A stretch of 55,069 bases of DNA from Clostridia bacterium (GTDB taxonomy: Bacteria > Bacillota > Clostridia > Oscillospirales > CAG-272): the NCBI GenBank assembly GCA_017517745.1, contig JAFWYJ010000025.1:1-55069 (forward strand), read 5' to 3'. Numbering within the stretch: position 1 is the first letter of the stretch; each line of letters starts with the position of its first letter. This document shows, piece after piece, positions 26,807-52,101 of this stretch. The position numbers were made by a program, and so were the translations under genes. The notes beneath the pieces were generated by a model. That model searched no databases. It was not told the DNA's origin and saw nothing but the letters and a program-made list of their open reading frames with translations.

Positions 26807-28000
26807 ATGTTATATTACGAAAAGTTATCCGAACCAATCGAACAGCGAATCCGAACCGATCTGCAAAACGGCACCGTGCCGAACCTTGCATTTGACGAAG
26901 CAAACGTCATTCGACGCGCCGATCGAGACGCGGCAAGTGTTTGGCGCACGGCTTTCATCCGCGACATCGATAAAATCCTGCATTGTCCGTATTACAATCG
27001 CTATGCCGACAAAACGCAGGTTTTTTCCTTCTATAAAAACGACGACATCACCCGCCGCGCCCTGCACGTGCAATTGGTTTCGCGGATCGCGCGGACGATC
27101 GGCAAGACACTGCATCTCAATGCGGACCTGATCGAGGCCATCGCCCTGGGACATGACATCGGACACACACCGTTCGGTCACGCGGGTGAGCGCTATCTCG
27201 ATGAGCTTTTGCGCACCCATACGGGACGTCGGTTCAGCCACAACATCCACTCGGTGCGCGTGCTGGATCAGATCTTCCCGCTCAACGTCAGCCTGCAAAC
27301 GCTTTCGGGAATCGCAAGTCATGACGGCGAATTGGAGCTTTCCGAATATCGCCCGCAACCGCTCGACTCGTTTGAGGAATTCGATGCAATGATCGAGGGG
27401 TGTTATCTGGACAAAGCCAACGTCTCCAAACTCGTTCCCTCAACACTGGAGGGATGTGTGATGCGGATCTCGGATATCATCGCCTACCTCGGCAAGGACC
27501 GTCAGGACGCCGACAAGGCAAACATCGTTTCCGTCGGTTGCTTCTCCCCCTCGGAGATCGGAGAATACAATGCCGAAATCATCAACAATCTGATCGTCAA
27601 CATCATCGAAAACAGCTACGGACACGACTATATCAAAATGGACGAGAGACATTTCCAAGCGTTGGCAAAGGCAAAAGCCGAGAATTATGAGAAGATCTAT
27701 CATTATCCCGCCACCGCAGAGAAATTCGATGCGGTGATCAAGCCGATGATGACCGAGCTCTACGAAACGCTCCTGAAGGATCTTCGATCGCACAACACCG
27801 ATTCCCCGATTTTCACCCATCATATCCGTTACGTCAATAAAGCACACTACGCGCATGCAACACCTTATGAGCAGACCGAGCCCAATCAGTTGGTCGTGGA
27901 CTATATCGCAAGCATGACCGACGATTATTTCATCGACCTGCATCACCATCTTTTCCCCGACAGCGCGCACAAGATTGAATACAAAGGATATTTCGACTGA
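26807..28000 (+). CDS. dGTPase-like HD-domain triphosphohydrolase
   Basis: A 397-residue cytoplasmic protein of the dGTP triphosphohydrolase/HD family, which removes triphosphate from deoxynucleotides. The metal ligands read in order: His in RRALHVQLVSR near residue 87, His116-Asp117 in ALGHDIGHTPFGHAGE, and a later Asp in RISDIIAYLGKD. SHNIHSVRVLDQI and ASHDGE match the family's central helices. The N-terminus (RRADRDAASVWRTAFIRDIDKILHC) matches the usual substrate-binding start. AAGAGG precedes the ATG. It stands alone with its own promoter and terminator. Preference for dGTP over other dNTPs cannot be judged from sequence. Confidence 0.87.
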   Translation: MLYYEKLSEPIEQRIRTDLQNGTVPNLAFDEANVIRRADRDAASVWRTAFIRDIDKILHCPYYNRYADKTQVFSFYKNDDITRRALHVQLVSRIARTIGKTLHLNADLIEAIALGHDIGHTPFGHAGERYLDELLRTHTGRRFSHNIHSVRVLDQIFPLNVSLQTLSGIASHDGELELSEYRPQPLDSFEEFDAMIEGCYLDKANVSKLVPSTLEGCVMRISDIIAYLGKDRQDADKANIVSVGCFSPSEIGEYNAEIINNLIVNIIENSYGHDYIKMDERHFQALAKAKAENYEKIYHYPATAEKFDAVIKPMMTELYETLLKDLRSHNTDSPIFTHHIRYVNKAHYAHATPYEQTEPNQLVVDYIASMTDDYFIDLHHHLFPDSAHKIEYKGYFD

Positions 28001-28449: not shown

Positions 28450-31400
28450 TTATTTGGGTCTGTAACATACCCATTCTTGAACATTAGAAACATCACTTCC
28501 GGATGGATAGCTTGTCGATTCAAGATTTTCTGTTCTGTAGAAATAATAGGTGTAGATTAAAGAGCGATCTCTGTATCTGTACTGATTTACGTATATAGGC
28601 TTACTTGTATCATCAACCTCCCTTGTCGCCTGGTTGTACCAATATATATCCTTTCCTGTTAATTGATTGTATCCATATGCTGCATAGTTCTTACCGCCAA
28701 AAGAATGCGTCTCTTGCTTTTTCAAACTATAATCAAGCCATCCACTTTCTTCATAAGTAACACAGACACCCGATTTGTATGCGCAAGCATAATAATACCC
28801 GTCAGAACCCTTGCCGTAGTATCTACTATAGGAATATTGTGTCTTCTTCTCATATCCCGATATCACCTGCTGTGTTTCAACTTGTCTACTATCACTTGCA
28901 CTTATCGCTCCATCCTGCCATTCACTCCATGCACCGTAATCACTCCATGCAGATGTGGTATTATAGTATATCCATCCACTTAACGAGGAAGAACTCGAGG
29001 TTGTATAGTAGGTTTGCGTGTAAGTATACTTCCTATCTACAATCTGAGCATCCGCAGGAACATCGGATGCACTTGCCCAATCGAGGTCCTTTTCTGCCCA
29101 ATATGCATAAATCGTAAGATCGGTTGCAGAACCTGGAACAGTAGAATCATATACAGGATTTCCGTTAGCATCATACCAACCAATAAAGTTGTGGTAATCT
29201 CTTGTGGGTGTAGGAAGAGATCCCAAACTATTTCCAAAGATTAATGTTTTACCGGATGCAGACACATAGCCACCATTCGCATTGTAATACAAAGTAAAGG
29301 GGGTCGGCGTCCAGTATGCATATACAGTAAAGTTTGTAGCAGAGCCGGGAACGGTAGAATCATATACACGATTGCCGTTTGCATCATGCCATCCGGCAAA
29401 GGTATAGTTTGCCCTTGTGGGTGTCGGCAAGGATCCAAGACTATTACCAAAGGTTAATGCTTTCGAAGAAGGCGAAACGCTGCCTCCATTCGCATCAAAG
29501 TGAACGGTAAACGGGTTTGGTGCCCAATGCGCATACAGTGTCTGATTAACCAATGCGATTACAATCGAATCAGCAGTGATCCGGGTCCCTCCCTCAGCCT
29601 CTGTATACCATCCTGTGAACGTATAATTTGCACGGGTAGGAGTAGGCAGAACACCATAATACTGTCCGTAATATACCGTCTTGGAGGATTCCGAGGCGCT
29701 TCCGCCGTTCGCATTGAAAGTAACTGTACTTGATGTCAGCATACTGTTAAAGATGTCTTCATCAATTTGCTCAACACCATTTGAAGCGGTCAACATACTA
29801 TCATTGGTAATCGCGCCGCAAACCAAATACTTTCCTGTAACATTCATATAACCCGCTACTCCGGAATCGGCTTTGCTAAACGTTACATTTTTGCTGATTA
29901 CGGTATTTGTGCTCTTTGTGCTCAAATTGATATTACCCAAAAGCTTTACTTCGGCATTTGCAGATTCTACAATAAGAGCAAAACCGGGAGCATCTTCCAC
30001 AGTTACACGACCAAGGGCAATTGTGTTAGAACTCAGCTTGATGGGGGTATCGGTGTTTCCTACGAATGTAATATTGCTGATAAATGTTTCCGCTGCATTG
30101 GATTCGATCTGAAGATTGGTAAACGTCTTTCCACCGCCGAACAACGCAAAATATTCCGTAGAATCGGAAACCGTAATTTTACGATTGTCAAAGTAATCCG
30201 AGAGTTTCGTGAGATCAAGGGTGATTTTCTTCGCACCCGAGTTCAAGATTGCCTCTGCAACACTCGAATTTGCTGCCATCGCACGAATTTCGGGACAATC
30301 CTCAAATGCGTTTGCTCCAATAGAGGTTACTAAGCTATCAATTGCAAACATTGTCAAAGAAGTACAACCCTTAAAGGCGTTGTTTCCAATCTTCGTGACA
30401 CCGTAAGCAATCACAGTCTCAAGATTCGTGCATCCCTCAAATGCGTTATCGGGGATTTCGGTAATGTAAATGGGAAGGATCACGGTCTTGATGCTGGTGT
30501 TGCCTCTAAATGCATTTGCATCAATTGCTTTGGTTTGATATGCAGTGTAGGTATTGTCCCCATTGTTGACGGAATAGTATTGAGGAATAGAAACCGTTCC
30601 ATCAAAATGTTCAGGGGCCTCAAAACCAGTAATCGTTCCATCAAGATTTACTTCTACACCATCGGTTCTTCCCGTGACACCTACAATGTATTCGTTTACT
30701 TCATAAGGAATCTCAAAAGTAACGACACCGTTTTCACAGTCGGTGAAGTTAGCGTTGTCTTTGGAGTAATCCAAATACTCGTGTCTTTCATCATCAAGAA
30801 CACTAAACGTATAGGTGTAGTAAGAGCCTGTCGCAACATCATAGCCTACAACGCCATATACGTGGATAGTACCTGCCATTACAACTCGATAATAGCCCTC
30901 TGCATCAACATGATATTCGTATGTCTTCGTTTCGGTTTGAGATGTTCCCGAAGAATACTTCAACGAGGTCTGGTATTCGTTACTCTTGATTTCTTCTTCA
31001 TCAATTGACGAAGTTTTACTATTTTGACCGCCAAGCGCATCCGTCAAATGATAGCTGGTCTTTTTGGAGATCTGCGAAGAAATTGCCTCGGCAATTTGTG
31101 TGTTCGTACTAATCTCGTGGCTCTTTTCATAACCTTCTTCAGAGTTCCAAGAATTTGAATTGTTTTTGATTGTGGTATGATAAGAGGACGAATTGCTCGT
31201 ATTAACGGTCCCCACATAGCTTGAGGCAGAACCATCAACATGATATGCTTCGTTGTCTTTTCTTCCGGCAGCAACCTCTGCGCCAACAGTTGTTGTATTT
31301 TTAACTCCTGCGCTTACATCAACCACTTTTACAGGCAACGAAACACCCGCACTTACCTCATGGGTATTTTGTACACTTAATTTGCCGTCGACATAAGTAT

Positions 31401-33312
31401 TCTTTGAAGTATCATACGATTGGTTAATTCCCACAGATTTATCCGTTGTGACCTTAGATGAAGACGAGCTCGAACCGCCGGACTCGTTACTTACATAGGT
31501 TGATCCGCCGCTACTATTGCTGACAAAATAATTGCCTCCAACAGTATTTCCTTCGGAATCTGTTCTTTCTTCGCTCTTAACTTGCGAATTTTGGCTTTCC
31601 TCTTCCGCTACATAGATTTGATTCCACTCTTCGGACAAAGTCCAACCGGAGCTTCGTGTTGTAGCATTTGAAATAGAGTTAGCAATCAATTCCGCTTGCT
31701 CGGAGGTTATCGTGTCGGTATACGTAAAGCTAACCGTCATATCCAACTTCTGTGTATTTCCAATGTATCCGATTTGATACAACGGAACATTATCAATTCT
31801 TCCGATGTTATAAACGAAAAGGAATTGACCTGTTGAGCTATCTTCTATAATGATAGGTTTTTCATACGAGCTGTAACTTGTTGCTCTATTGCGGTTAGAT
31901 GTCCAGTTTGCATGAAGTGTGATATTACCCGTTGTACCTTCTTTTATTCTTGAAACAATAAATCCATCATCATTTGACCAACCCACGAAAGTATAACCAT
32001 ACCACGACGGGCTTATCAGTGTTGCGCCCGTGTCGATCGTATACGTCATACTTTCCACGGGAACATCGGGAGAATCAAAATTGATCGTATAGACAACCTT
32101 TTCCCATTGTGCATAAAGCGTTTTGTTTCCCGTTGTATTCGCAGTGATTTCGGAAATTTGTGTTCCGTCACTGGTCTTCCAACCTTTGAACACATAACCT
32201 GGAGATGAAAGGTCTTCGAGCTGCAATCCTACTTCCGAAACGTATGTGGTAGGATTATTATTGGCAACACCAACCGTTGCTAAATAGGTGTCTCCACCAA
32301 AAAGGTCGTATGCAATACCGTAATTTGTTCCGGGAATTACAGGAATTACCTGCTGTTCAACAAGTACAGTTCCGCAAACATCACAATGCGAACCTTGTGT
32401 TAAGCCGGTACTTGTATGTGTTGCCTCCACAGCATCATCAATGACCGTATTGTGGCCTGTTGCCGAAACAATTGTTTCTTGTCTGCTGATTTGCGTATTA
32501 CAATCTTCATCACTGTAAATTCTTCCACAGAGCTCACAATACCAAAATTCAATCTGTCCATCTTCAGTACAGGTAGGCTCTTTTGCTACACTATGAATCA
32601 AATCGTGTGTGCAAATTTCTCCGTAATAGAGAATGATATCCTCCCAACCTGCCACATAACGGAAAAGCGTTACCGCATCTTTCGTCGTGATCTTGTTGTC
32701 GCTGTTAACATCAAGAGCAGCAGTATCAACATCAACATCCCAACCGGCAACATAACGAAACAACTGGATTGCATCTTTTGTGTCAACCTTGGAATCTTCA
32801 TTGATATCTCCGGGCAGCCCGTGATATACCGTAATACTTCCATTGATGACAGCAAGCGCAATATCGCCGCTCTCGTTATATACTTCCAGGGGAGTCACCA
32901 CAATATTCGTATCATAATTGTTGGGAGCATCCTCGGCAATGGTAAAACTAAGTGTTGCCAAAGTTCCGTTTGTTGTATTTTCCGCCAAAGGACTGATCAT
33001 AGTAAGCGATTGTGGATTTTTGTACGGCTTGGAGGTTTCAATCATTGCACCCCCAAAATCACTGTTTACCTCAACATTGGTCAGAGAAAGAACTTCGCTG
33101 TCATATGAGATGCTGAGTTGCAATCCTGTCAATCCCACATTATGATCCAAAACAACCTTGACCTGCACGGTGTCTCCGGGACATCCCGTTTGCGAGCTTA
33201 CGGTAATAGTCATCGGCTTTTCTTCCGCAGCGAATGCGGAAATCGGAAGTACACCGAGGAGCATTACAAATGCGATAACAAATGCCATCGCCCTCGAAAA
33301 GCTTTTTTTCAT
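28450..33312 (-). CDS. Secreted cohesin-dockerin protein with shared novel domain, LRR and InlB repeats
   Basis: A 1,620-residue exported protein. The signal peptide ends at AFA-28. Residues 32-165 are a cohesin (VSSQTGCPGDTVQVKVVL start, GTLATLSF near the end). Residues 166-228 are a type I dockerin with two calcium loops (DINEDSKVDTKD and DVNSDNKITTKD). A Cys-rich zinc-ribbon-like part (CELCG, CDVCG) and two InlB-type repeats follow. Residues about 478-875 form an unrecognised Ser/Thr-rich domain shared with the next protein upstream. About 918-1010 are BspA-type leucine-rich repeats (NAFEGCTNLE, NAFKGCTSL). Three near-identical InlB repeats span about 1197-1408. The C-terminal 210 residues are Tyr/Ser/Trp rich (YRYRDRS, VQEWVCYRPK). 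No LPXTG or SLH. AAGGAG precedes the ATG. A 199-base gap separates it from the upstream gene. Confidence 0.88.
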   Translation of the reverse strand: MKKSFSRAMAFVIAFVMLLGVLPISAFAAEEKPMTITVSSQTGCPGDTVQVKVVLDHNVGLTGLQLSISYDSEVLSLTNVEVNSDFGGAMIETSKPYKNPQSLTMISPLAENTTNGTLATLSFTIAEDAPNNYDTNIVVTPLEVYNESGDIALAVINGSITVYHGLPGDINEDSKVDTKDAIQLFRYVAGWDVDVDTAALDVNSDNKITTKDAVTLFRYVAGWEDIILYYGEICTHDLIHSVAKEPTCTEDGQIEFWYCELCGRIYSDEDCNTQISRQETIVSATGHNTVIDDAVEATHTSTGLTQGSHCDVCGTVLVEQQVIPVIPGTNYGIAYDLFGGDTYLATVGVANNNPTTYVSEVGLQLEDLSSPGYVFKGWKTSDGTQISEITANTTGNKTLYAQWEKVVYTINFDSPDVPVESMTYTIDTGATLISPSWYGYTFVGWSNDDGFIVSRIKEGTTGNITLHANWTSNRNRATSYSSYEKPIIIEDSSTGQFLFVYNIGRIDNVPLYQIGYIGNTQKLDMTVSFTYTDTITSEQAELIANSISNATTRSSGWTLSEEWNQIYVAEEESQNSQVKSEERTDSEGNTVGGNYFVSNSSGGSTYVSNESGGSSSSSSKVTTDKSVGINQSYDTSKNTYVDGKLSVQNTHEVSAGVSLPVKVVDVSAGVKNTTTVGAEVAAGRKDNEAYHVDGSASSYVGTVNTSNSSSYHTTIKNNSNSWNSEEGYEKSHEISTNTQIAEAISSQISKKTSYHLTDALGGQNSKTSSIDEEEIKSNEYQTSLKYSSGTSQTETKTYEYHVDAEGYYRVVMAGTIHVYGVVGYDVATGSYYTYTFSVLDDERHEYLDYSKDNANFTDCENGVVTFEIPYEVNEYIVGVTGRTDGVEVNLDGTITGFEAPEHFDGTVSIPQYYSVNNGDNTYTAYQTKAIDANAFRGNTSIKTVILPIYITEIPDNAFEGCTNLETVIAYGVTKIGNNAFKGCTSLTMFAIDSLVTSIGANAFEDCPEIRAMAANSSVAEAILNSGAKKITLDLTKLSDYFDNRKITVSDSTEYFALFGGGKTFTNLQIESNAAETFISNITFVGNTDTPIKLSSNTIALGRVTVEDAPGFALIVESANAEVKLLGNINLSTKSTNTVISKNVTFSKADSGVAGYMNVTGKYLVCGAITNDSMLTASNGVEQIDEDIFNSMLTSSTVTFNANGGSASESSKTVYYGQYYGVLPTPTRANYTFTGWYTEAEGGTRITADSIVIALVNQTLYAHWAPNPFTVHFDANGGSVSPSSKALTFGNSLGSLPTPTRANYTFAGWHDANGNRVYDSTVPGSATNFTVYAYWTPTPFTLYYNANGGYVSASGKTLIFGNSLGSLPTPTRDYHNFIGWYDANGNPVYDSTVPGSATDLTIYAYWAEKDLDWASASDVPADAQIVDRKYTYTQTYYTTSSSSSLSGWIYYNTTSAWSDYGAWSEWQDGAISASDSRQVETQQVISGYEKKTQYSYSRYYGKGSDGYYYACAYKSGVCVTYEESGWLDYSLKKQETHSFGGKNYAAYGYNQLTGKDIYWYNQATREVDDTSKPIYVNQYRYRDRSLIYTYYFYRTENLESTSYPSGSDVSNVQEWVCYRPK
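29080..29725 (-). repeat. Three tandem InlB-type (Listeria-Bacteroides) coding repeats
   Basis: Three ~210-base units each encode xFxANGGxxSxSSKxL, then LPTPTR, a GW pair and YAxW. The second and third share GNSLGSLPTPTR and STVPGSAT motifs and are very similar at DNA level, so copy number here could vary by recombination. Confidence 0.7.
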
Positions 33313-33511: not shown

Positions 33512-36500
33512 TTACTGCCAAATTTCAACGCTAGGATACACCGTTACTGTCACTCCGGCATGTAGACGATGCCAATCGTCCGCACCATTGCCGTGTGCTC
33601 CGTATGCCAGATGCATAACGGAAGTACAAGTATTTCCTCGACAGAACCATGATGTATAAACCCATGCCCAGTCTGTCTGCCTTCCTGATCCACGATTAAT
33701 TTCCCAACCCGCAATGTTAGCATTCCCTGCTGTTGATAAATATACCTCTTGAATCCCATCCTCTTCCTCACGCATGTAAAGCGAAACCTCGAAAAGTAGC
33801 GTGTAATCCGAATTCAAAACATTGCCAAAGTGCGAAAGATCAAAGGCATCCAAATCATGGTATTCTTTGCTGGCATCAATTTCTTTATCAAAGACCCCCA
33901 AATCATAAGTATATTTCTTGTTTTCTCTAAGAACACTCACTCTAATATTGTGTGCAGGCATTGGATCCCCAAAATTAAAGACAATTGCTTCCCCTGTGTC
34001 ATCATTATAAAACTCATAGTTGATATATGCATATGCCTCCTTATAAGGGATAACAGGAGCAACGGTGAAAGCACCGTAGTTATATACTTCAGAATTAATT
34101 GGAGCACCGGTAGAAACAGTGTACGAAACAGTGTACTGATTCACCGTCCAGCGTGCCGTCAAGGTATGATCCGACGCCTTGGATACAATGGTATCGCTCT
34201 CAATTCTTTGACCATCTAAATACCAACCTGCAAAGGTGTGTCCTGTTTTATAAGGCAAGGGCAACACGCCATAGACATCATCATATTCAACTGTCCTATT
34301 TGTGGGATCATCTGTTATACCGCCATCAAGATTAAACGTTACGTCATAGGAATTAACAACCCAATCAGCGTACAAAATCACCGTTTCACCGGCAACGGCA
34401 ATATCACAAATCGTGGCGTTATCAGTATAAATGGATGCATCTCCATTCAACGTTGTTTTCCACCCATCAAAGGTGTAGCCTTCTTTTTCAAATGCATTGG
34501 GAATCAATGCAGAGGCCACTCCCAACTCGTGAACAGACTTGGGCATCTCACCTGTACCGCCGTTAGCATCATATTCCACGGTGTAGAACATCTCGGGAAG
34601 CTGCTCAAAGGGAATTTCAAAATCCAAAACATCTCCGCTTATAATACTGATATCATATTCAAGATCAGTCGGCAAGGTGTACAATAAACCGTTATGAATG
34701 GTAGTGGGTACACTATATACATCAAAGACATAGTTGCCCGTATAAGGATTATAGGTTACAATAGCATACACCTTAACGTCCATCAAACGAGCCCAAGTAT
34801 AGTTACCTGCAGGCGTCACACCGGGAACAAATGTGTCGCTTACCGTTCTGCTTACTGATTCTTCCATATAATAGTCTATGATTGAGCGTACTTCATTTTC
34901 TGTACCGTTCTCTTCATAGTTCTTTTCGCTACTAAAACCCGTATTCTCATAAGTATCTGTATCAGAATTTGAATAGCCGCCGGAAAATTCCCATGCACTT
35001 ACCTTGATTCCCTCAACCTCGACCTCTGGTTTCCATTTTGCACCCACTTCCCATCCCTCAGTATGAGTTGACGTGTGAGTTGATATATTTGCCATCTCAG
35101 TTGAAGAAGAAACAATTTTCGAAACGGTTTTCGCCGCTTCCTGCCCAGCAGATACCCCTACAGTGTAAGTTTTGGTTTCTGCCTCAGTATGCTCGGTGAG
35201 ACCATCAAAGGTATAGTTGTGTTGTTTACTTAATACAATATTTTTTATTGCACCAATTTCATATATAAAACTATACCTGCCATATTGATCCATTACACCG
35301 CTAACATAAGTATATTTGTTTTTGTTGGATACGGCGTAGTTTTCTTTGTATATCCAATTTGCCTCAATCGTTCTGTCTCCGATCTCGCCGGCAGGGATCT
35401 CTGTGATTTTATTTCCATCCTCATCCGTCCAATGCGAAAATATGAGACAATCACCGCCACCCGCAGATTCCTTCCATTTAGGAGTGGTCAATCTAATACC
35501 ATTAGCAATGTTATATGACCATGATTCTTCTCTACCAAGACCAAGCAGCGTTATCTTGTATTCATGCAAGGACCTATTCGCATACAAATCAACCTTCTCA
35601 GTATTACCTGCCGGAATGAGCGATATCTTATTTTCATCAGTAAAGTTTTCGCTTGTATGCCAACCGTTAAAATCATATCCTTTCATATCGGGCGGGAAAA
35701 TGTTTTTCAAAGAGAGCACCTCTGACTGTTTATATGCTCCAATCGTATGTGTGTCATTTTCCAAATCAAAGAAGTAGACCAAATACGTATCCCATGCCGT
35801 ATCGACAAGGGCAATTTCTTGAGTAGCGGTCTCGTCCAGATAACACTTTTTACAAACAGAGCACTGCCAATAAGCACGGTTACCAGGATCGTTTGCATCC
35901 ACGGGATCTCTTTCTGCCACATAGTTCAAGCTGTGACCTATGGCTTCAGCCAAAACCACCCGACACACAGTACACCGCTGTGGTTCTGTGCAAGAGGCTT
36001 CAACGCCCGCAATATGCCCGTTGGCGCTTTTAAGAATCACACCGCAAACAGTACAGCTTTGATCCTTCGTGCACGTTGCTTCTGTACCTGGAGCATGATC
36101 GATCATCGGCACACCATACTGAGGCACCAACACTTCATTGCAAACCAAGCAATGTGAACCTTCTGTCAAACCAGTCTCGAAACAAGAGGGTTCCACTGCT
36201 TTGTCAACAACCTCGGTGTGACCTTTTGCGGGATCAATGATATCCGCCAGCGAAATTTCGTTGGCCGCATTCTCATCAGCGAAATACCTACCGCAAGCAA
36301 CACAACACCAATAAGCAATATTACCGTCTTCAGTACAAGTGGGGGCTTTAGCCTCAATAAAACTCAAAGCATGTGTACAAATCTCTCCGCGATGGAGAAC
36401 GATATCAGGCCATTCAGCTACATATCGGAAGAGCGTGATCGCGTCTTTCGTATCAATATGATTGTCGCCGTTGCAATCAAGAGCAGCAGGATCAACGTCA

Positions 36501-37093
36501 ACGCTCCAACCGGCGACGTAACGAAATAAGAGGATTGCGTCTTTTGTGTTGACCTTGGAATCGCCATCGACATCCCCGGGAACTCCGTGATATACCGTGA
36601 CTTTTCCGTTTGCAACAGTAAGCGCAATATTATCATAATTTCCGTTATACACGTCATCCTCGTCGTATGTAATATTGATGCCGGCAATATGATTATCGGG
36701 TGCTTGTCCTGAAATTTCAAACGTAAGAGTTGCCAAGACCCCATTCGTTGAAATATCGTTCAAGGGGCTGATCAGCGTAATTGTTTGAGGGTTAGTATAG
36801 GGTTCCGGCGTTGTAATATACGATCCAAACGCGCTATTAAAGGCAACGTCGGTTAATGTTAAAACATCATCGTACACAACGTCAAATTTTAGCGATGCAA
36901 GACCTGGATTATTCTCTAAATTAATAGTTACTTGTACTGTGTCTCCGAGCGTTCCACTCACAGAAGAAACCGACAATATCATTGCTTCGGTTTCTTCTGT
37001 ATTTTCAGTGGCAAACACCGATAATGGAAGCATATTGACAAGCATAATCAAAGTTATCGCCAAAGCAACAACTCTCGATATATATCTTTTCAT
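33512..37093 (-). CDS. Secreted cohesin-dockerin protein with shared novel domain and InlB repeats
   Basis: A 1,193-residue exported protein. The signal peptide ends at VFA-28. A cohesin covers about 36-170 (VSSVSGTLGDTVQVTINL) and a dockerin about 174-238 (DVDGDSKVNTKD and DCNGDNHIDTKD loops). A Cys-rich part, about 243-398, has five CxxC-type pairs. Two InlB-like repeats follow. Residues about 595-845 match the Ser/Thr-rich domain of the 1,620-residue neighbour: FIYEIGAIKNIVL corresponds to FVYNIGRIDNVPL, TEGWEVGAKW to SSGWTLSEEW, VLDFEIPFE to VVTFEIPYE. Three more InlB-like repeats cover about 847-1070. The C-terminal 120 residues end in a Trp/His-rich part (WAWVYTSWFCRGNTC) I do not recognise. 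The start follows AAAGGAGC, 28 bases after the upstream gene's stop, so the two are co-transcribed. Confidence 0.88.
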   Translation of the reverse strand: MKRYISRVVALAITLIMLVNMLPLSVFATENTEETEAMILSVSSVSGTLGDTVQVTINLENNPGLASLKFDVVYDDVLTLTDVAFNSAFGSYITTPEPYTNPQTITLISPLNDISTNGVLATLTFEISGQAPDNHIAGINITYDEDDVYNGNYDNIALTVANGKVTVYHGVPGDVDGDSKVNTKDAILLFRYVAGWSVDVDPAALDCNGDNHIDTKDAITLFRYVAEWPDIVLHRGEICTHALSFIEAKAPTCTEDGNIAYWCCVACGRYFADENAANEISLADIIDPAKGHTEVVDKAVEPSCFETGLTEGSHCLVCNEVLVPQYGVPMIDHAPGTEATCTKDQSCTVCGVILKSANGHIAGVEASCTEPQRCTVCRVVLAEAIGHSLNYVAERDPVDANDPGNRAYWQCSVCKKCYLDETATQEIALVDTAWDTYLVYFFDLENDTHTIGAYKQSEVLSLKNIFPPDMKGYDFNGWHTSENFTDENKISLIPAGNTEKVDLYANRSLHEYKITLLGLGREESWSYNIANGIRLTTPKWKESAGGGDCLIFSHWTDEDGNKITEIPAGEIGDRTIEANWIYKENYAVSNKNKYTYVSGVMDQYGRYSFIYEIGAIKNIVLSKQHNYTFDGLTEHTEAETKTYTVGVSAGQEAAKTVSKIVSSSTEMANISTHTSTHTEGWEVGAKWKPEVEVEGIKVSAWEFSGGYSNSDTDTYENTGFSSEKNYEENGTENEVRSIIDYYMEESVSRTVSDTFVPGVTPAGNYTWARLMDVKVYAIVTYNPYTGNYVFDVYSVPTTIHNGLLYTLPTDLEYDISIISGDVLDFEIPFEQLPEMFYTVEYDANGGTGEMPKSVHELGVASALIPNAFEKEGYTFDGWKTTLNGDASIYTDNATICDIAVAGETVILYADWVVNSYDVTFNLDGGITDDPTNRTVEYDDVYGVLPLPYKTGHTFAGWYLDGQRIESDTIVSKASDHTLTARWTVNQYTVSYTVSTGAPINSEVYNYGAFTVAPVIPYKEAYAYINYEFYNDDTGEAIVFNFGDPMPAHNIRVSVLRENKKYTYDLGVFDKEIDASKEYHDLDAFDLSHFGNVLNSDYTLLFEVSLYMREEEDGIQEVYLSTAGNANIAGWEINRGSGRQTDWAWVYTSWFCRGNTCTSVMHLAYGAHGNGADDWHRLHAGVTVTVYPSVEIWQ

Positions 37094-37121: not shown

Positions 37122-38834
37122 TTAATTTGCTTGAATGTTTACCGTTCCATTGATTACTTCAAATACAACCGGATCAAAGTTTTCATCATAAATCTCATCT
37201 TGGTGGAGCGTGATCGTGATGTTCGCCGTTGTATCGACTGTTACGGCATCGGAAATATCGAAGGTCAGAGTTGCAAATGTTCCACTTACAGTAACTTCAG
37301 CAAGAGGACTGATGCAAGTAATTGTCTGCGGATTGGAATAGGGGGTAGGCGCGGTTACGTATGCTCCGAAAGCCGCGTCAAAGGTTACATTACTTAGTGT
37401 AAGTACATCATCGTACGTAACGTCAAACTTCAAAGACGAGATGCCGGGGTTATTAGCAATAGAAATGATAACGTCTACCGTTCCGTCACCAACATTCGCA
37501 ATCACATCATTGACAACAATAGAGGGAGACGTAATATTTCTTTCATACTGTGCCGTTACGGTCAAATCAGTCGTTACATTGTCGAAGCTCTTATCCCATC
37601 CCGTGAAAGTATAATTTTCTCTTTCGGGATCCGCAGGAGCGGTTGCGCTCATTCCGCTTTCAACGGTTTCGGTTTTCAGCACCGTTCCATCATGGTCTAC
37701 AAAAGTAACGGTGAAAGTCTCCACGGCAGGCTCGTTGAAATGCTTGGTCGCATTCTCGATCGCGTCGTTACCGGCGGAAATGCTGACGTTATTGTTCCAC
37801 TCCTCCTCGGTTCCGTCATAGTAAACGTCCGTCAGCGCGGTGCAATTATTGAACGCTCTTCTCGCAATCTCCTCGATCGTGCTCGGGAAGGACACACTGG
37901 TAATCGCCTCTCCCGCAAAAGAAGAGCTGTCAATACCGATCACGGTATCGTTGTCGGGAGATACGGGGGGAATGACAAGCTCGGTGTCCGTGCAATCGCC
38001 CATGCCAATGACATAGCAAGTGCCGTCGCCGTTGCTGTCAAATTCCAAGCCGCTCGAATACTTTACATATACAGGTGTGTAGACCTCGTTTTTGCTTCCA
38101 ACGGTCAGCTCGTATGTAGCGGTCGTTGCAATCTTGTTGTTCTTGCTATCAGACCAATACGCAAAGGTAGCTCCGTTTGCATCGGTCATGGGAGCTGTCA
38201 TCGTGACCTTGTCACCGGGGAGATACAGACCGTGTGTGCAACCGTCATCCAATACTCCTGCCGTCAGCTTCACCTGATACCAATCGGCGGTAGCAAGTCT
38301 GTCCACCTTATAATCGTCCAGATATTTCTGCGCCGCCGCACCGTATGCGAGCATATGCGTCAGCATTTCCTTGAGCTCGGTATCGGTGGACGCGGTTGCG
38401 GTTTTGCCGAGCTTGTTGTAGGCGTATTGGAGAATGCTGTATTTGTTGACCTCACTGTAATAGTCCACGCCATCCACCCGAGAATAGGCACGGGCATAGA
38501 CTACATCGGTCATCTGCTTTGCAGCAAGCTCGGTGTAGTCAAAGGCCATATAGGACGATCCGTCAATCTCGTCATTATCGTAATCCGTGATTTCGGCATC
38601 CTGCGTTCCAATGGTATAATTCGCTTCGGGAGCAGTCCAAATCAGAATTTTCACATTCGAAACATTCGACTTTACGGCATACTTAATGCAAACGGAATCA
38701 CGGAAGGACAGATTGCAATATGCGATGCTGAGCTCAGGGATAGGTGATGTAGCACCCGTCATAATAGCAAAAGCACTTAAGCTACCAATGATAAGTGCCA
38801 GAGTCATCATTAAGGCAATGATTCTTTTTTTCAT
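37122..38834 (-). CDS. Secreted protein with LRR, InlB repeat and C-terminal cohesin, no dockerin
   Basis: A 570-residue exported protein, first large gene of the cluster. A signal peptide of about 28 residues is followed by a roughly 160-residue domain (SIAYCNLSFRDSVCIKYAVK; YSILQYAYNKLGKTATASTD; MLAYGAAAQKYLDDYK) that I have seen in other gut Clostridia surface proteins but cannot name. Residues 278-360 hold BspA-type leucine-rich repeats (IPSxx, RRAFNNCTALTDVYYDGTEEEW), 373-428 an InlB repeat and 435-570 a cohesin (SLKFDVTYDDVLTLSNVTF). Unlike its neighbours it stops right after the cohesin without a dockerin, so it could serve as an end piece. AAAGGAGG precedes the ATG; a small peptide gene ends 18 bases upstream. 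Confidence 0.87.
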   Translation of the reverse strand: MKKRIIALMMTLALIIGSLSAFAIMTGATSPIPELSIAYCNLSFRDSVCIKYAVKSNVSNVKILIWTAPEANYTIGTQDAEITDYDNDEIDGSSYMAFDYTELAAKQMTDVVYARAYSRVDGVDYYSEVNKYSILQYAYNKLGKTATASTDTELKEMLTHMLAYGAAAQKYLDDYKVDRLATADWYQVKLTAGVLDDGCTHGLYLPGDKVTMTAPMTDANGATFAYWSDSKNNKIATTATYELTVGSKNEVYTPVYVKYSSGLEFDSNGDGTCYVIGMGDCTDTELVIPPVSPDNDTVIGIDSSSFAGEAITSVSFPSTIEEIARRAFNNCTALTDVYYDGTEEEWNNNVSISAGNDAIENATKHFNEPAVETFTVTFVDHDGTVLKTETVESGMSATAPADPERENYTFTGWDKSFDNVTTDLTVTAQYERNITSPSIVVNDVIANVGDGTVDVIISIANNPGISSLKFDVTYDDVLTLSNVTFDAAFGAYVTAPTPYSNPQTITCISPLAEVTVSGTFATLTFDISDAVTVDTTANITITLHQDEIYDENFDPVVFEVINGTVNIQAN

Positions 38835-38852: not shown

Positions 38853-39011
38853 TTAAAGCATATCGCCAAGAACTTGAGGGTCCCACTCCCCTTGATTTCC
38901 ATCGCCCGACGTACGGATGATATCCGTATCGGAATATTGGACGATGTTAAGTTGAGGGGCTTCATAGGTCGTTTTAGAAACGATAGCTTGATTGGTGTAC
39001 GTGTGGTTCAT
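38853..39011 (-). CDS. 52-residue peptide gene heading the surface-protein operon
   Basis: A small gene with an excellent ribosome site (AGGAGG, 9 bases before the ATG) and a TAA 18 bases before the start of the first cohesin protein. The peptide has no signal sequence or membrane segment. It starts MNHTYTNQAIVSKTTYEAPQ, has a hydrophobic LNIVQY core, then DIIRTSGDG and an acidic, Gly-rich tail ending in DML. From memory, short peptides with an APxLxIV core followed by DIIxTSGDG are frequent in gut Clostridia; no function is established to my knowledge. It could be a peptide precursor with a leader and core part, or a translated leader that tunes expression. It is the first gene the invertible promoter would drive after inversion. 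Confidence 0.75.
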   Translation of the reverse strand: MNHTYTNQAIVSKTTYEAPQLNIVQYSDTDIIRTSGDGNQGEWDPQVLGDML

Positions 39012-39038: not shown

Positions 39039-39063
39039 ACCACATACTTTTAATTATGTGGTA
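39039..39063. repeat. Left inverted repeat of the invertible segment
   Basis: A 25-bp site beginning ACCACATAC and ending AATTATGTGGTA; its inverted partner lies at 39289-39313 with 24 of 25 bases identical. The site is itself nearly palindromic (ACCACATA / TATGTGGT arms), as expected of a tyrosine-recombinase crossover site with two inverted protein-binding arms around a short spacer. Similarity stops sharply at both ends. It lies 12 bases upstream of the ribosome site of the 52-residue peptide gene. Confidence 0.8.
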
Positions 39064-39288
39064 TTTCTGTAGCACAGAGGACAATGATAGTGAAATGAAA
39101 TCACAAAAAATTCATATGCGGATAAACCCAAACAAAAAGAAAGAATTGCTTGGGCGTTTTTCTGTGTTGATTTTTCATTTTTACCATTCGTTTCTTACAC
39201 CAAAATCCCACTGTCTTCCGTTATTTCCTCAAAAATGATTGACAAAATCGGATTTCTGTGATAAAATATATTATGTATCCAATTTTTG
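39064..39288. promoter_or_regulatory. Predicted 225-bp invertible promoter segment
   Basis: AT-rich non-coding DNA bounded by matched 25-bp inverted repeats, lying between a tyrosine recombinase gene and the start of the surface-protein operon. It carries one good promoter, now pointing to the right, away from the operon. I found no convincing minus-strand promoter near its left end. Inversion would place the promoter about 67 bases upstream of the peptide start codon. No open frame of note is inside. The layout matches known phase-variation switches driven by tyrosine recombinases; inversion itself is predicted, not observed. Confidence 0.72.
39239..39267 (+). promoter_or_regulatory. Promoter inside the invertible segment, in OFF orientation
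   Basis: TTGACA, 17 bases, TAAAAT on the plus strand. Transcription would start near 39274 and immediately meet the right inverted repeat, whose palindrome plus CTTTCTTTTT could act as a terminator before the transcript becomes antisense to the recombinase gene. Confidence 0.75.
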
Positions 39289-39313
39289 TACCACATAATT
39301 AAAATTATGTGGT
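39289..39313. repeat. Right inverted repeat of the invertible segment
   Basis: The inverted copy of the site at 39039-39063, one base different. Its arms are perfectly complementary over 11 bp (ACCACATAATT / AATTATGTGGT) around two bases. On the plus strand it is followed by GCTTTCTTTTTAAC, a terminator-like tract. It ends 9 bases from the stop codon of the recombinase gene. Confidence 0.8.
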
Positions 39314-39322
39314 GCTTTCTTT

Positions 39323-40162
39323 TTAACACCTCAGCAACCCTAACCTTTCAATCTGCCTGCGGTGAATGACGCCTGTTTCCATGGTGTAAATTCTCGTGGT
39401 ATTCACGCTGCTGTGTCCAAGAATGTCGGCAAGGCGCACCACGTCCTTTTGCAGGCTATAAAACGTGCGCGCGAACAGGTGACGGAGATTGTGCGGAAAG
39501 ACCTTTTTCTCCGACACGTTCGCCGTCTTGCATAGTTTTTTCATATCACTCCAGATATTCGATCTGTCAAGCGGATTGCCGTTTTTCGTCACGAACACGG
39601 CGCCGCTTTTTCTGTTTTGCTCACGGATATACCGACCGAGCATTTTTCGCAGATCCTTGGGCAAAAAGACCTGCCGCCGCTTGCCCTTGCAGTTGATCTC
39701 CGCGATCCCATGCTCCACCGCCTCGACCGTGATGAAACGCAACTCCGACACACGGATCCCCGTGGAGCAGATCGTTTGCATCAGGAGATACAGTCGCTCG
39801 TTCTTCTTGGATTTCGCCGCCGTCAGAAGTCGGTCATATTCGGCTTTGGTCAGCTCCTTTTCAGAGGCTGTGAAGATCTGCCTCTGAATCTTGAGATTTT
39901 TTACCCTCAACTCGTGCCAACCGCAGAAATCAAAAAAGCGATTGAGCGATGACAGTGCGGCGTTGACGCTTGCGGGAGCGTACTTTTCACACAACTCGGT
40001 TTTATATTGCAAGACCGCGCTTTTTGCGAGCGCGCGATCCCCCAACCACTCGCAAAACATTGCCACGTCGCGAAGGTATTTTTCGACCGTTGCCGTCGAC
40101 TTTTCCTCGTCAATCAAATATCTTTTGAACCCCAAAATCATTTCGTCCGTAATGTGTTCCAT
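39323..40162 (-). CDS. Tyrosine recombinase, probable invertase of the adjacent promoter
   Basis: A 279-residue site-specific recombinase (phage-integrase family, XerC/D size). Residues 7-90 are the SAM-like core-binding domain; the catalytic domain follows. All active-site residues are present: Arg137 (STGIRVSEL), Lys159 or 161 (CKGKRRQ), His224 and Arg227 (HNLRH), His250 (LGHSS) and nucleophile Tyr259 (RIYTM). A GGGGGAA ribosome site precedes the ATG. No excisionase, tRNA attachment site or phage genes accompany it; what it borders is a pair of 25-bp inverted repeats. That context favours a DNA invertase over a prophage integrase. A generic Xer-like role is less likely, as dif-type context is absent. 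Confidence 0.92.
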   Translation of the reverse strand: MEHITDEMILGFKRYLIDEEKSTATVEKYLRDVAMFCEWLGDRALAKSAVLQYKTELCEKYAPASVNAALSSLNRFFDFCGWHELRVKNLKIQRQIFTASEKELTKAEYDRLLTAAKSKKNERLYLLMQTICSTGIRVSELRFITVEAVEHGIAEINCKGKRRQVFLPKDLRKMLGRYIREQNRKSGAVFVTKNGNPLDRSNIWSDMKKLCKTANVSEKKVFPHNLRHLFARTFYSLQKDVVRLADILGHSSVNTTRIYTMETGVIHRRQIERLGLLRC

Positions 40163-46123: not shown

Positions 46124-47608
46124 TCAATTTAACTGCTTTTTCAATTCCTGAAAACTTTCCAAAGCACTCTGTAAATTCTCGATAATGTCATCCGCAAGCA
46201 CATCTGGATCGGGAAGATTGTCAAGATCAGCGAGGGACTTGTCCTTGATCCAAAAAATATCAAGACTTGTCTTATCGCGCTTCATGATTTCATCTACACT
46301 AAACTTGCGCCAACGTCCATCGGGATTTTCCTCCGACCATGTTTCCTTGCGCTCGTGGCGATTTTCGGGATTGTAGCAAACTATAAAATCTTGCAAATCC
46401 GCGTCACCCATCGGATGCTGCTTCAGCGTAAAGTGAATATTGGTTCGGAAGTCATAAATCCAAATTTCTTTGGTCTGCCTATCGGGACTTGCGGGCTTTT
46501 TATCAAAGAATATAACATTAGCCTTTACGCCGGGCTTATAGAAGATACCTGTCGGCAGACGAAGAATTGTATGCAGATCGGTAGTCTGTAACAGCTTTTG
46601 ACGTACTGTTTCACCCGCACCGCCCTCAAACAGAACGTTGTCAGGAACAACGACCGCAGCTTTACCCGTTGCTTTCATGATCGTATTGATATGCTGAACA
46701 AAATTAAGCTGTTTGTTAGAGCTTGTTGTCCAGAAATCCTGACGGTTATATACAAGATCTTCTTCCTCTTCCTCGCCTTCCTCGTTGGTCATCGTAATAG
46801 ATGACTTCTTACCGAAAGGCGGGTTGGTGAGAACGTAGTCAACACGATAACCAGGATCGGTCAAAAGCGAGTCACCCTGCGTTACGGGAACGTTGCCGTA
46901 AATATCACCAATATTGTGCAGATAAAGGTTCATCAAAGCCATTTTGAATGTGGTCTTGACAAGCTCATTGCCGTAGAAGGTTTCGTTTTTGAGAAACTCT
47001 TTTTGCTCTCTATCCAAAGTGTAATTATCGGGATTTGTGAGAAATTCCTGTGCAGCAAGGAAGAAACCGCCCGAACCACAGCACGGATCGGCAATGGTTT
47101 TCTTGGGCTCAGGACGCAGACATTCTACCATAGCACGGATTAAGGGACGGGGCGTAAAATACTGACCTGCACCACTCTTGATATCTTCCGCGTTCTTTTG
47201 GAGCAATCCCTCATAGATTTCGCCCTTGACATCGGAAGACATTGAAACCCATTTCTCTTTGTCGATCATCTGCACAATACGGAAAAGAATAGCCGCATTG
47301 CTGATTTTATTGCTTGCCTGTGAGAAGATCTGACCGAGAATACCGCCCTCTTTTGCAAGCTTTTCAAGCGTTTTCTTGTACTGTTCTTCAAGTTCTGCAC
47401 CCTTGAGCGTATTCATATCCGACCACGTATATCCCTCGGGAATGCCGGTGATCTTCTTATAGGGCGGCTTGGAATATTCATCCGACATCTTCAGAAAGAT
47501 GAGATATGTAAGCTGTTCAAGATAATCTCCGTAAGATACGCCATCATCGCGAAGCGGAGCGCACATACCCCAAACTTTAGAGATTATTGTTGTTGATTGT
47601 TCACTCAT
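46124..47608 (-). CDS. hsdM: Type I restriction-modification DNA methyltransferase subunit (HsdM)
   Basis: A 494-residue N6-adenine methyltransferase subunit. The N-terminal helical HsdM_N domain (residues 5-125) is followed by the catalytic domain: the GQYFTPRPLIRAMVE box, SAM motif I ADPCCGSGGFFL near 172 and catalytic NPPF near 262. The C-terminal helix (ENLQSALESFQELKKQL) is the usual contact to HsdS. The ATG is chosen because AAGGTGAT lies before it; a GTG three codons upstream falls inside that ribosome site. It overlaps the TIR gene by 8 bases (ATGAGTGA), so it is the last gene of the operon and translationally coupled to a TIR protein, not to hsdS. Confidence 0.95.
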   Translation of the reverse strand: MSEQSTTIISKVWGMCAPLRDDGVSYGDYLEQLTYLIFLKMSDEYSKPPYKKITGIPEGYTWSDMNTLKGAELEEQYKKTLEKLAKEGGILGQIFSQASNKISNAAILFRIVQMIDKEKWVSMSSDVKGEIYEGLLQKNAEDIKSGAGQYFTPRPLIRAMVECLRPEPKKTIADPCCGSGGFFLAAQEFLTNPDNYTLDREQKEFLKNETFYGNELVKTTFKMALMNLYLHNIGDIYGNVPVTQGDSLLTDPGYRVDYVLTNPPFGKKSSITMTNEEGEEEEEDLVYNRQDFWTTSSNKQLNFVQHINTIMKATGKAAVVVPDNVLFEGGAGETVRQKLLQTTDLHTILRLPTGIFYKPGVKANVIFFDKKPASPDRQTKEIWIYDFRTNIHFTLKQHPMGDADLQDFIVCYNPENRHERKETWSEENPDGRWRKFSVDEIMKRDKTSLDIFWIKDKSLADLDNLPDPDVLADDIIENLQSALESFQELKKQLN

Positions 47609-48710
47609 CGTTATCACCTTCTATTTTAGCTTTTCTTTTAAGTAAATAATCTACAGTCTCTTTATATGAGTCTTGCACAACACCTTTGGGTATTTGTTTA
47701 ATCTTATCTTCTAATATTTCAATGATTTCTCTCATATCATTTGTTGATTTAATTTCAACATTTTCAAAAAAACCGGGGAAAATTAGACTATTCTCGTGTT
47801 TAACATATAACTTTAGTTGTTCATAGGCTTCATCTAAATCTCCATTAGCACTGTATATAGTAGCTAAAAGCATATCCATACCATCATCACTATCGATATT
47901 TAATTTTTCTTTCAGCTCAAGATAGCGATTTACCATACTGAACCAAAACTCTTTATAAACAGATTTAAAAATCTTGGAGGTAATTCCTCCCCCATAACCT
48001 AAATATACAAATCTTTCTCTTATCGTTTCCAATTCTTTTTTTAAAAGCTCGTTGCTTCGCTCATCATAACTTGTTTTAAGACGACCTTTTAAATTATCAA
48101 TGCCTTTATTCAACTCTTGAATTTTGTTTTGTAGGTCTTCTTTTTCTTTCTCTTTTCTTTCGTTTTCTTTTCGAATCATTGCTTCTTTTTCCACAATAGA
48201 AGAGATAAATACTTTTGTTGCACTCACAAAAGTATTTTCTGCGTTGACCAAAATAGAATGTTTAGGAAGTGTTATCTTTAAATTTTCACAAAGATTTTCA
48301 GCAAACAATCCTAAATCTCCACTATGCTCTTCATCAAGGAAAGAAAATTTATCAACTTTAGAATTTACAAATCCCTTTAAGTCAGACAAGTCTATATCAG
48401 GAAGAATAAGATAGAAACATGATATCTTTTTGTGTTGAGATAAATACCATCCAATACCCAATTCTTCCATACAATACGAACTTGAAAGAAAGTCTCTTGA
48501 AATTATATAAACAATTACTTTTGAACGATTTATTGATTTAGCAATAGCATCATTTAGTTTCTCACCATTATTAACGCCTTGTCCGATAATGGAAGAACAA
48601 AATATTCTACTTTCGCTAACGCCCAATCTTGTTATAAAAGCACATAGTTGCTCTGCAATTTCTTTGTTTTCTGAAGAATGTGAAATAAAAATATTCTTTT
48701 TACAAAACAT
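47601..48710 (-). CDS. TIR-domain protein embedded in the type I restriction operon
   Basis: A 369-residue protein. Residues 5-150 are a TIR domain: KNIFISHSSENKEIAEQLC at the first strand, VIVYIISRDFLSSSYC, then Glu82/Glu83 (CMEELGIGW) where the catalytic Glu of NAD-cleaving TIRs sits. Residues about 170-235 form a charged coiled coil (KENERKEKEKEDLQNK). The C-terminal 130 residues are helical and look TPR-like (ATIYSANGDLDEAYEQLKLYV). Bacterial TIRs often deplete NAD+ in antiphage defence. The ATG lies one base after the HsdS stop with GAGGGAGA before it, and the end overlaps hsdM. It is therefore expressed with the restriction system. Sensor or effector role is inferred. Confidence 0.88.
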   Translation of the reverse strand: MFCKKNIFISHSSENKEIAEQLCAFITRLGVSESRIFCSSIIGQGVNNGEKLNDAIAKSINRSKVIVYIISRDFLSSSYCMEELGIGWYLSQHKKISCFYLILPDIDLSDLKGFVNSKVDKFSFLDEEHSGDLGLFAENLCENLKITLPKHSILVNAENTFVSATKVFISSIVEKEAMIRKENERKEKEKEDLQNKIQELNKGIDNLKGRLKTSYDERSNELLKKELETIRERFVYLGYGGGITSKIFKSVYKEFWFSMVNRYLELKEKLNIDSDDGMDMLLATIYSANGDLDEAYEQLKLYVKHENSLIFPGFFENVEIKSTNDMREIIEILEDKIKQIPKGVVQDSYKETVDYLLKRKAKIEGDNDE

Positions 48711-48711
48711 A

Positions 48712-49317
48712 TTATAATTCTCCCTCAAATGCTTTTTTCAAAATGCTTAACCTTAAAATTTCCACATCACTCAGTGCAGACTCCAATATTCTCTTAATGT
48801 TATCACAACAAGATAACTGAGACTCTATTTGTTCTACAATTAAGAGCTGCGTTTCTTTGTCCTTAGGATATCTTATAGGTAGCTTTTTTAAAATTGTTTG
48901 GCTGATATTAGGTTGAGCTCCTCCTATGCCTTGCTCGATAAGACTATTTCTACAAAGAAGCAAATAATAGTATAAATATTTCAATGTTACCTTTTCATTT
49001 TCAAAAATGGCACATATTGCTTGGTTGGTACATGCCTCAATTCCCAAAAAACCCAGTTTACCAATTGTAGCACCATATAAAGCTATTAAAAGAGTTCCCT
49101 TGGGGAAAAGTTTAGCACTTGAATTCTCTAGCCCTGCTTGTGTGATTTTAATTTCAGAATCCCAAATCACGCCCTTATCCAATTCGCCTGAACGCACCCA
49201 TGGTATAGTTCCACCTTCATAGTATTCCACATGCTTTTTATCTGGAGTTCCACCGCTTGTCATTTTTGCGATTTTACCGAGTTCTTCTGTGACCCATTCT
49301 ATTTTTGTTTCATCCAT
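48712..49317 (-). CDS. hsdS: Half-length type I specificity subunit (HsdS), one target-recognition domain
   Basis: A 201-residue specificity protein, about half the usual 400. It has one target-recognition domain (WVTEELGKIAKMTSGGTPDK start; GTIPWVRSGELD; LLIALYGATIGKLGF; IGGAQPNISQTILKKLPI) and one conserved spacer helix (EQIESQLSCCDNIKRILESALSDVEILRLSILKKAFEGEL in outline). That is complete for one half, with no remnant of a second domain in the 28 bases to hsdR. Half-size subunits can dimerise and recognise a symmetric bipartite site; deletion from a full-length ancestor is the alternative. GAGGTAGA precedes the ATG. Confidence 0.88.
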   Translation of the reverse strand: MDETKIEWVTEELGKIAKMTSGGTPDKKHVEYYEGGTIPWVRSGELDKGVIWDSEIKITQAGLENSSAKLFPKGTLLIALYGATIGKLGFLGIEACTNQAICAIFENEKVTLKYLYYYLLLCRNSLIEQGIGGAQPNISQTILKKLPIRYPKDKETQLLIVEQIESQLSCCDNIKRILESALSDVEILRLSILKKAFEGEL

Positions 49318-49345
49318 ATAGTTCTACCTCATACTGCATAGTGTT

Positions 49346-52084: not shown

Positions 52085-52101
52085 TGTCAAGCCTCCTTCA
52101 G

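Follow-up and report, generated by a model that had tools for sequence, protein, structure and literature searches.

Known Invertible Promoters and the Present Locus

In Escherichia coli, the fim system has the gene order fimE-fimS-fimA and two recombinase genes. Its promoter segment measures 296 bp (PMC5903667). In C. difficile, RecV acts on several unlike repeats, of which only Cdi7 has a recombinase nearby in the account available, and switches have also been located in Clostridia, most of them near signaling and chemotaxis genes (PMC5903667). Inverton group 139, associated with invertase group 35 (a tyrosine recombinase), has 32 of its 33 members from Clostridia and flips in sequencing reads; subtraction of the printed coordinates gives start-to-start spacings of 231 and 241 bp for two of its members (PMC11892184). 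An invertible promoter beside a tyrosine recombinase is already known in Clostridia, and the locus described here is a further case. It lies in a 55,069-nt stretch of DNA (the whole of which was analyzed, and which is called the window below) from Clostridia bacterium (Oscillospirales, CAG-272; assembly GCA_017517745.1, contig JAFWYJ010000025.1), where two inverted sites next to a tyrosine recombinase gene very probably bound a phase-variable invertible promoter that would be flipped by this recombinase and would drive a surface-protein operon. It makes a concrete, testable candidate for the switching of a surface system in a gut lineage that is represented here by metagenome bins.

Like fim, the locus has a tyrosine recombinase gene placed before a segment of ~300 bp that contains only a promoter and precedes a surface-structure operon. 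Unlike fim, it has one recombinase gene beside the segment, 24-bp near-palindromic sites and a terminator-like recombinase-side site, and its recombinase falls far short of the NCBIfam models of DNA invertases. The cwpV and flagellar switches of C. difficile, with RecV, likewise combine phase-variable surface genes, short invertible segments and a recombinase, although here the enzyme gene and the site pair are linked (PMC5903667). The site sequence, used as a text query, returned no useful paper among the matches listed.

Architecture of the Locus

The source genome comprises 2.17 Mb in 62 contigs and is 97% complete. The features of the presumed switch are as follows.

39039-39063, no strand: operon-side crossover site (inverted arm, from arm comparison); 24-bp site at 39039-39062
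39064-39288, no strand: presumed invertible segment, 225 bp, with no open reading frame (ORF) of note
39127-39154, plus strand: hairpin with a T run behind the promoter, a possible insulating terminator
39239-39267, plus strand: predicted promoter TTGACA-17-TAAAAT with TG before the -10, a sequence match only, facing the recombinase as assembled
39271-39278, plus strand: TTATGTAT just 3' of the -10, similar to the inner portion of a recombinase half-site (no more than a suggestive likeness)
39289-39313, no strand: recombinase-side crossover site (inverted arm, from arm comparison); 24-bp site at 39290-39313
39323-40162, minus strand: tyrosine recombinase of 279 aa, the presumed switch enzyme (Pfam Phage_integrase, E=1.2e-29)

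The two arms, 25 nt each and inverted relative to each other, are complementary at 24/25 positions and enclose 225 nt, which agrees with the claim of an earlier note on this DNA that two inverted 25-bp sites with one mismatch surround 225 bp of non-coding sequence; the inverted sites as such are real. The near-palindromic character that the same note gave to the sites is borne out by both 24-bp sites (ACCACATA...TATGTGGT), the centers of which are 251 bp apart and the six core bases of which match in inverted orientation. The note had also placed one site against the recombinase and the other just before the ribosome site of the operon, and the measured distances are 9 bp from the recombinase stop to the recombinase-side 24-bp site and 27 nt from the operon-side site to the ATG of a 52-aa ORF. 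No further copy of the site occurs elsewhere in the source genome at ≤2 mismatches to the pattern searched, and a reversed control pattern gave 0 matches.

The predicted promoter agrees with the consensus at 11/12 positions; promoter-like sites in 1.6 kb number 2, against 2.4 expected from shuffles. Because this promoter points at the recombinase, we take the assembled form to be OFF; after inversion, the promoter would lie at about 39085-39113 on the minus strand (ON). The promoter in the segment, the 52-aa first ORF and the third large protein of the operon (1620 aa, see below) were absent from the earlier note.

Site Pairs among Relatives

The relatives compared are the best 80 of 247 recombinase relatives obtained from a scan of genome contigs, and are labelled as Clostridia, Oscillospiraceae, Ruminococcus, Lachnospiraceae or similar, almost all of them being metagenome bins. 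Both sites were found at 65/80 of these loci. Among the remainder, the pair is degenerate in L111, L068 is cut at its second arm, L062 is short and has one site, and nine contigs end before a second site could be visible. The six-base cores of the two sites match in inverted orientation at every locus (65/65) and directly at none (0/65), the pair with the best core match having been chosen at loci with three or more candidates; when a site was paired with the partner from another locus, a full core match resulted in 1.6%. There are 35 distinct four-base cores among the loci, none of them palindromic. Cores that are matched within a locus and different between loci, inside arms common to the whole family, are the signature of strand exchange between two copies. 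Such site pairs recur across the order and the class, and the reversed control pair pattern yielded 0 matches.

A survey of single sites (at least 121/394 genomes) was not used as evidence for a switch, because its reversed control pattern matched many genomes too; 18 pairs taken from it are superseded by the full pair surveys. At ten loci (L057, L069, L077, L080, L085, L089, L090, L091, L094, and L095), an extra tandem site with the same core lies 33-41 bp from the first, and in L101 such a site lies 87 bp from the first. The notion that tandem-site loci always have three sites was dropped, since L091 and the bin G065 appear to carry a pair at both ends.

Both Orientations among Relatives

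Orientation was assigned by the best promoter match, which placed 47 loci in the OFF form and 16 in the ON form, with 2 assigned to neither (n=65); a stricter rule gave 43 OFF and 13 ON (n=56). Full-length inversions are visible by direct comparison of segments: that of L035 is inverted relative to L034, L036, and L041, and that of L061 relative to L055 and L065, all three of the latter group being in bin SIG626. The earlier note had proposed a comparison with related genomes, and the segment is thus found in both orientations among them. L055, L061, and L065 (SVQV bin) are paralogous cassettes, each before a long secreted-type protein and one of them in the opposite orientation, and contig C163 of this bin has a fourth site pair with the same core.

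The note had asked for inverted junctions in reads; in assembled sequence, both junctions were found in one relative bin (G065, bin Lapin-003-2). Its contigs C2 and C42 are identical over exactly 77 bp at their starts, a stretch with one segment end (X) and a site pair, and part ways within the outer arm of the site, one continuing into the recombinase and the other into the apparent operon flank. In L091, a relative with a flank of 85% identity and a contig that ends 9 bp past the far site, X is found at the end distant from the recombinase, next to which there is a different sequence. Given these differing segment ends, the presence of X beside both flanks in G065 indicates that both orientations are present. 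The 77-bp overlap resembles an assembler k-mer, and the same overlap links two G062 contigs. Between L090 and L091, 49 bp of segment end plus site are 100% identical and the flanks only 85% identical, hinting at an exchange of segments or at shared reads.

Whole-Turn Spacing of the Sites

The spacing of the site centers fits whole turns of the DNA helix (10.5 bp) in 62/66 loci, and the 251-bp spacing in the window is in phase. Descent from a few ancestral lengths, as opposed to selection for helical phase, might also give such a pattern, but we consider this unlikely: among non-overlapping nearest pairs of changed length, the change was by whole turns in 15/19 (p 0.0096); the phase of the locus set (9.86) agrees with that of the survey (9.88); a whole-turn prediction written in advance held in 29/32 pairs found beyond the order, and in 10/12 families most pairs were in phase; and the distance from site2 to the ORF has no period (p 0.58). 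The whole-turn rule, drawn from three data sets, is the part of this work most likely to be new, and no match for helical phase in promoter switches of this kind was found in the open-licence literature searched. Natural sequence variation here provides a measure of a physical rule, in that the length of short inversion loops seems to change by whole turns over evolution, and this rule could sharpen computational searches for functional invertible segments.

Inverton group 139 resembles the present loci in having short invertible segments in Clostridia beside a tyrosine recombinase, and its spacings of 231 and 241 bp both fall at whole-turn values of the present loci (PMC11892184). On the strength of clade, linkage and these two spacings, group 139 is probably the present family. 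The main text of that article makes no mention of helical, periodic, spacer, palindrom-, crossover, cohesin, or dockerin (PMC11892184).

Predicted Transcripts and Proposed Mechanism

The recombinase-side site is also a terminator-like stem on the plus strand, followed by a T-rich tail (TTTCTTTTT). In the OFF form, the predicted transcript would reach this site after ~15 nt, counted from a start site deduced from the promoter, and computed folding of the transcript gives a 12-pair hairpin (-15.6 kcal/mol, z -5.45) and then a T run. A T run lies outside the recombinase-side site in 43/64 loci and outside the operon-side site in 9/64. The recombinase-side site therefore probably doubles as a terminator for the OFF transcript, sparing the recombinase gene antisense transcription; this would explain in a simple way how the neighboring gene escapes disturbance by the OFF promoter. 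In the ON form, constructed in silico, the predicted transcript crosses the operon-side site and has nearly 70 nt ahead of its start codon.

At 62/66 loci, 13-54 bp separate the end of the best promoter match from the site that it faces. The distances from the -10 to the site in the 66 loci cluster near 13, 23, 34, and 45 bp, in steps of roughly a helical turn. A motif resembling a half-site, such as TTATGTAT in the window, occurs 16-27 bp from the site at the promoter end of 23/64 loci and at the other end of 5/64 (0.9 expected), where both the motif and its range were picked after inspection of the data; an accessory half-site near the promoter is suggested by these counts.

We infer that the adjoining recombinase is the enzyme of the switch, and that inversion takes place in this organism as follows. 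The recombinase would bind the two near-palindromic sites and bring them together in a loop of 251 bp, measured from center to center, and strand exchange within the asymmetric core would reverse the segment. With the promoter facing the 3' end of the recombinase gene (OFF), the transcript would stop on the recombinase-side hairpin and T run; in the opposite orientation (ON), transcription would cross the operon-side site and enter a putative four-gene operon at its ribosome site, and expression of the operon would change with orientation. Because the loop is short, both sites would have to lie on the same face of the helix, so that the segment would evolve in length by whole turns.

Tyrosine Recombinase

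The N-terminal part of the recombinase has a SAM-like N-domain (Pfam). The earlier note had described the gene as intact, with Arg137, Lys159 or 161, His224/Arg227, His250, and Tyr259 as the catalytic residues, and in an alignment of the window protein with 16 chosen from the 80 relatives, R137, K159, K161, H224, R227, H250, and Y259 are all invariant (17/17). No NCBIfam model, those of named Xer or FimB/FimE-type recombinases included, reaches its curated cut-off for this protein; the best score is that of XerA_Arch (142 of 220 bits), XerD scores 131.8 of 329.6, and the DNA invertase model PRK09870 scores 30.4 of 221. Its nearest solved relatives are Xer proteins.

Putative Target Operon with Cohesin and Dockerin Domains

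On the far side of the segment, four genes on the minus strand form the putative operon.

38853-39011, minus strand: 52-aa ORF that opens the putative operon, with a strong ribosome site (CCTCCT/AGGAGG)
37122-38834, minus strand: 570-aa secreted-type protein with List_Bact repeats, LRR_5 just below the cut-off, and a C-terminal cohesin (Pfam)
33512-37093, minus strand: 1193-aa secreted-type protein with an N-terminal cohesin, then a dockerin, and List_Bact repeats (Pfam)
28450-33312, minus strand: 1620-aa secreted-type protein with an N-terminal cohesin, then a dockerin (Pfam)

The gene for the 1620-aa protein is probably the last of the operon, an assignment made because the 199-bp gap before it contains neither a promoter-like site nor a minus-strand terminator-like site; the next likely gene beyond it (26807-28000) runs in the opposite direction. 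As in cellulosomes, cohesin and type I dockerin domains exceed the Pfam cut-offs here, although the cohesin of the 570-aa protein was below the cut-off in one search and above it in the other. In contrast to cellulosomes, these domains occur in repeat-rich secreted-type proteins, and no enzyme domains were found in a Pfam scan of the 570-aa and 1193-aa proteins. A genome-wide Pfam search found 3 cohesin domains and only 2 dockerin domains, all within the putative operon. The three proteins could chain together on the surface through their cohesins and dockerins. If the locus is read correctly, the cassette would place the whole cohesin-dockerin surface system of the genome under on-off control.

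The operon of L063 starts in a similar way, with a 597-aa ORF (62% identity over 554 aa) after a similar small peptide. The pattern YE.P...DII.TS...NQG.WDPQ is common to the 52-aa peptide and to this 47-aa peptide at the same place in L063; the 52-aa peptide has no NCBIfam match, and a regex scan of the other loci of the 66-locus set gave no match beyond L063.

Among 59 first ORFs picked by script, with the window included, domains at E ≤0.001 were List_Bact in 12, cohesin in 9, LRR_5 in 8, TetR in 4, YpsA in 4, dockerin in 3, and SLH in 2, these counts being among the matches listed (best 25 of 64 families). A crude rule assigned a signal-like N-terminus to 36/59. From its sequence context, the cassette appears as a module set before many, often surface, genes. 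The earlier note had regarded a cohesin-dockerin operon as an undescribed target. That view stands to the extent that no description of a cohesin or dockerin target of an invertible promoter was found in the open-licence literature (titles and abstract starts); however, since the cohesin-like first genes (9/59 loci, including the window) extend to other loci, the present operon is one target among many.

Weighing of the Evidence

The conserved architecture, the inverted cores and the occurrence of both orientations among relatives support the earlier reading of the locus as a phase-variable invertible promoter with its own recombinase. Several observations weigh against it. The assembly of the source genome has one orientation only, and the operon-side site in the window has a C at position 9, adjoining the core, where 132 site copies have A in 129, T in 2, and C only in this copy. 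Sites are kept where the recombinase is kept at the 65/80 loci given above, but L056 has one site with no partner, and L070 and L104 have a recombinase without sites. The spacing is out of phase in 4/66 loci, including L061, one of the inversions. Terminator hairpins within the segment point in the promoter direction in 19/64 loci, in the other direction in 24/64 and in both in 9, and a regular in-segment terminator was rejected as a family feature on account of this irregularity. In favor of inversion, contig ends within 4.9 kb after the recombinase gene coincide with a site in 8/27 cases against 0.23 expected, but this test was framed after the ends had been viewed, has three truncated sites entered by hand and excludes L033 and L087 (the contigs of which end inside the gene); the contig ends inside or at a site in L068, L081, L084, and L086 could be artefacts of small-k assembly.

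The single assembled orientation and the unusual C at position 9 would also fit a switch that is real in the family but locked in the source genome, by the site mismatch and a silent recombinase, with the operon permanently off or otherwise driven. This is improbable in our view, as the two sites agree at all six core bases, the recombinase is intact and retains every catalytic residue, the 251-bp spacing is in phase, and mismatches in the arms are common (the outer halves of the sites match fully in only 27 and 42 of 65 loci). The scoring of the recombinase-side palindrome as an intrinsic terminator fits the idea that the palindromes are ordinary terminators or operators, with the recombinase a neighbor by chance and no inversion. 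Terminators, however, have no need of asymmetric cores that match at every locus, and relatives have inverted segments and both junctions, with site pairs across order and class against 0 control matches; this reading, very unlikely as a full account, was rejected as such and retained as a second role. Still less likely is that the recombinase, which does have a Pfam Phage_integrase domain, is the integrase of a small mobile element with the palindromes as its attachment sites: excision requires direct repeats and the cores never match directly, the recombinase gene lies outside the segment that the sites bound, and that segment has no ORF of note. Mobile-element attachment sites were therefore rejected.

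Beyond the invertible promoter at this locus, we find it reasonably probable, with appreciable doubt, that the loci belong to a Clostridia-wide family of cassettes in which segment length would be selected for helical phase (n x 10.5 bp minus ~0.6), the promoter would be phase-locked, and the recombinase-side site would silence the OFF transcript, the cassette in this genome controlling the entire cohesin-dockerin system.

Elsewhere in the Window

On the minus strand at 46124-52090, there is a type I restriction-modification set with an HsdM-like protein (497 aa), an HsdS-like protein of only 201 aa and an HsdR-like protein (914 aa), together with a 375-aa TIR-like protein encoded between the methylase and the specificity gene; these names come from visual inspection of the translations. 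The minus strand also encodes, at 13125-24314, a secreted-type protein of 3729 aa in which numerous GGAIY-like repeats precede repeated blocks.
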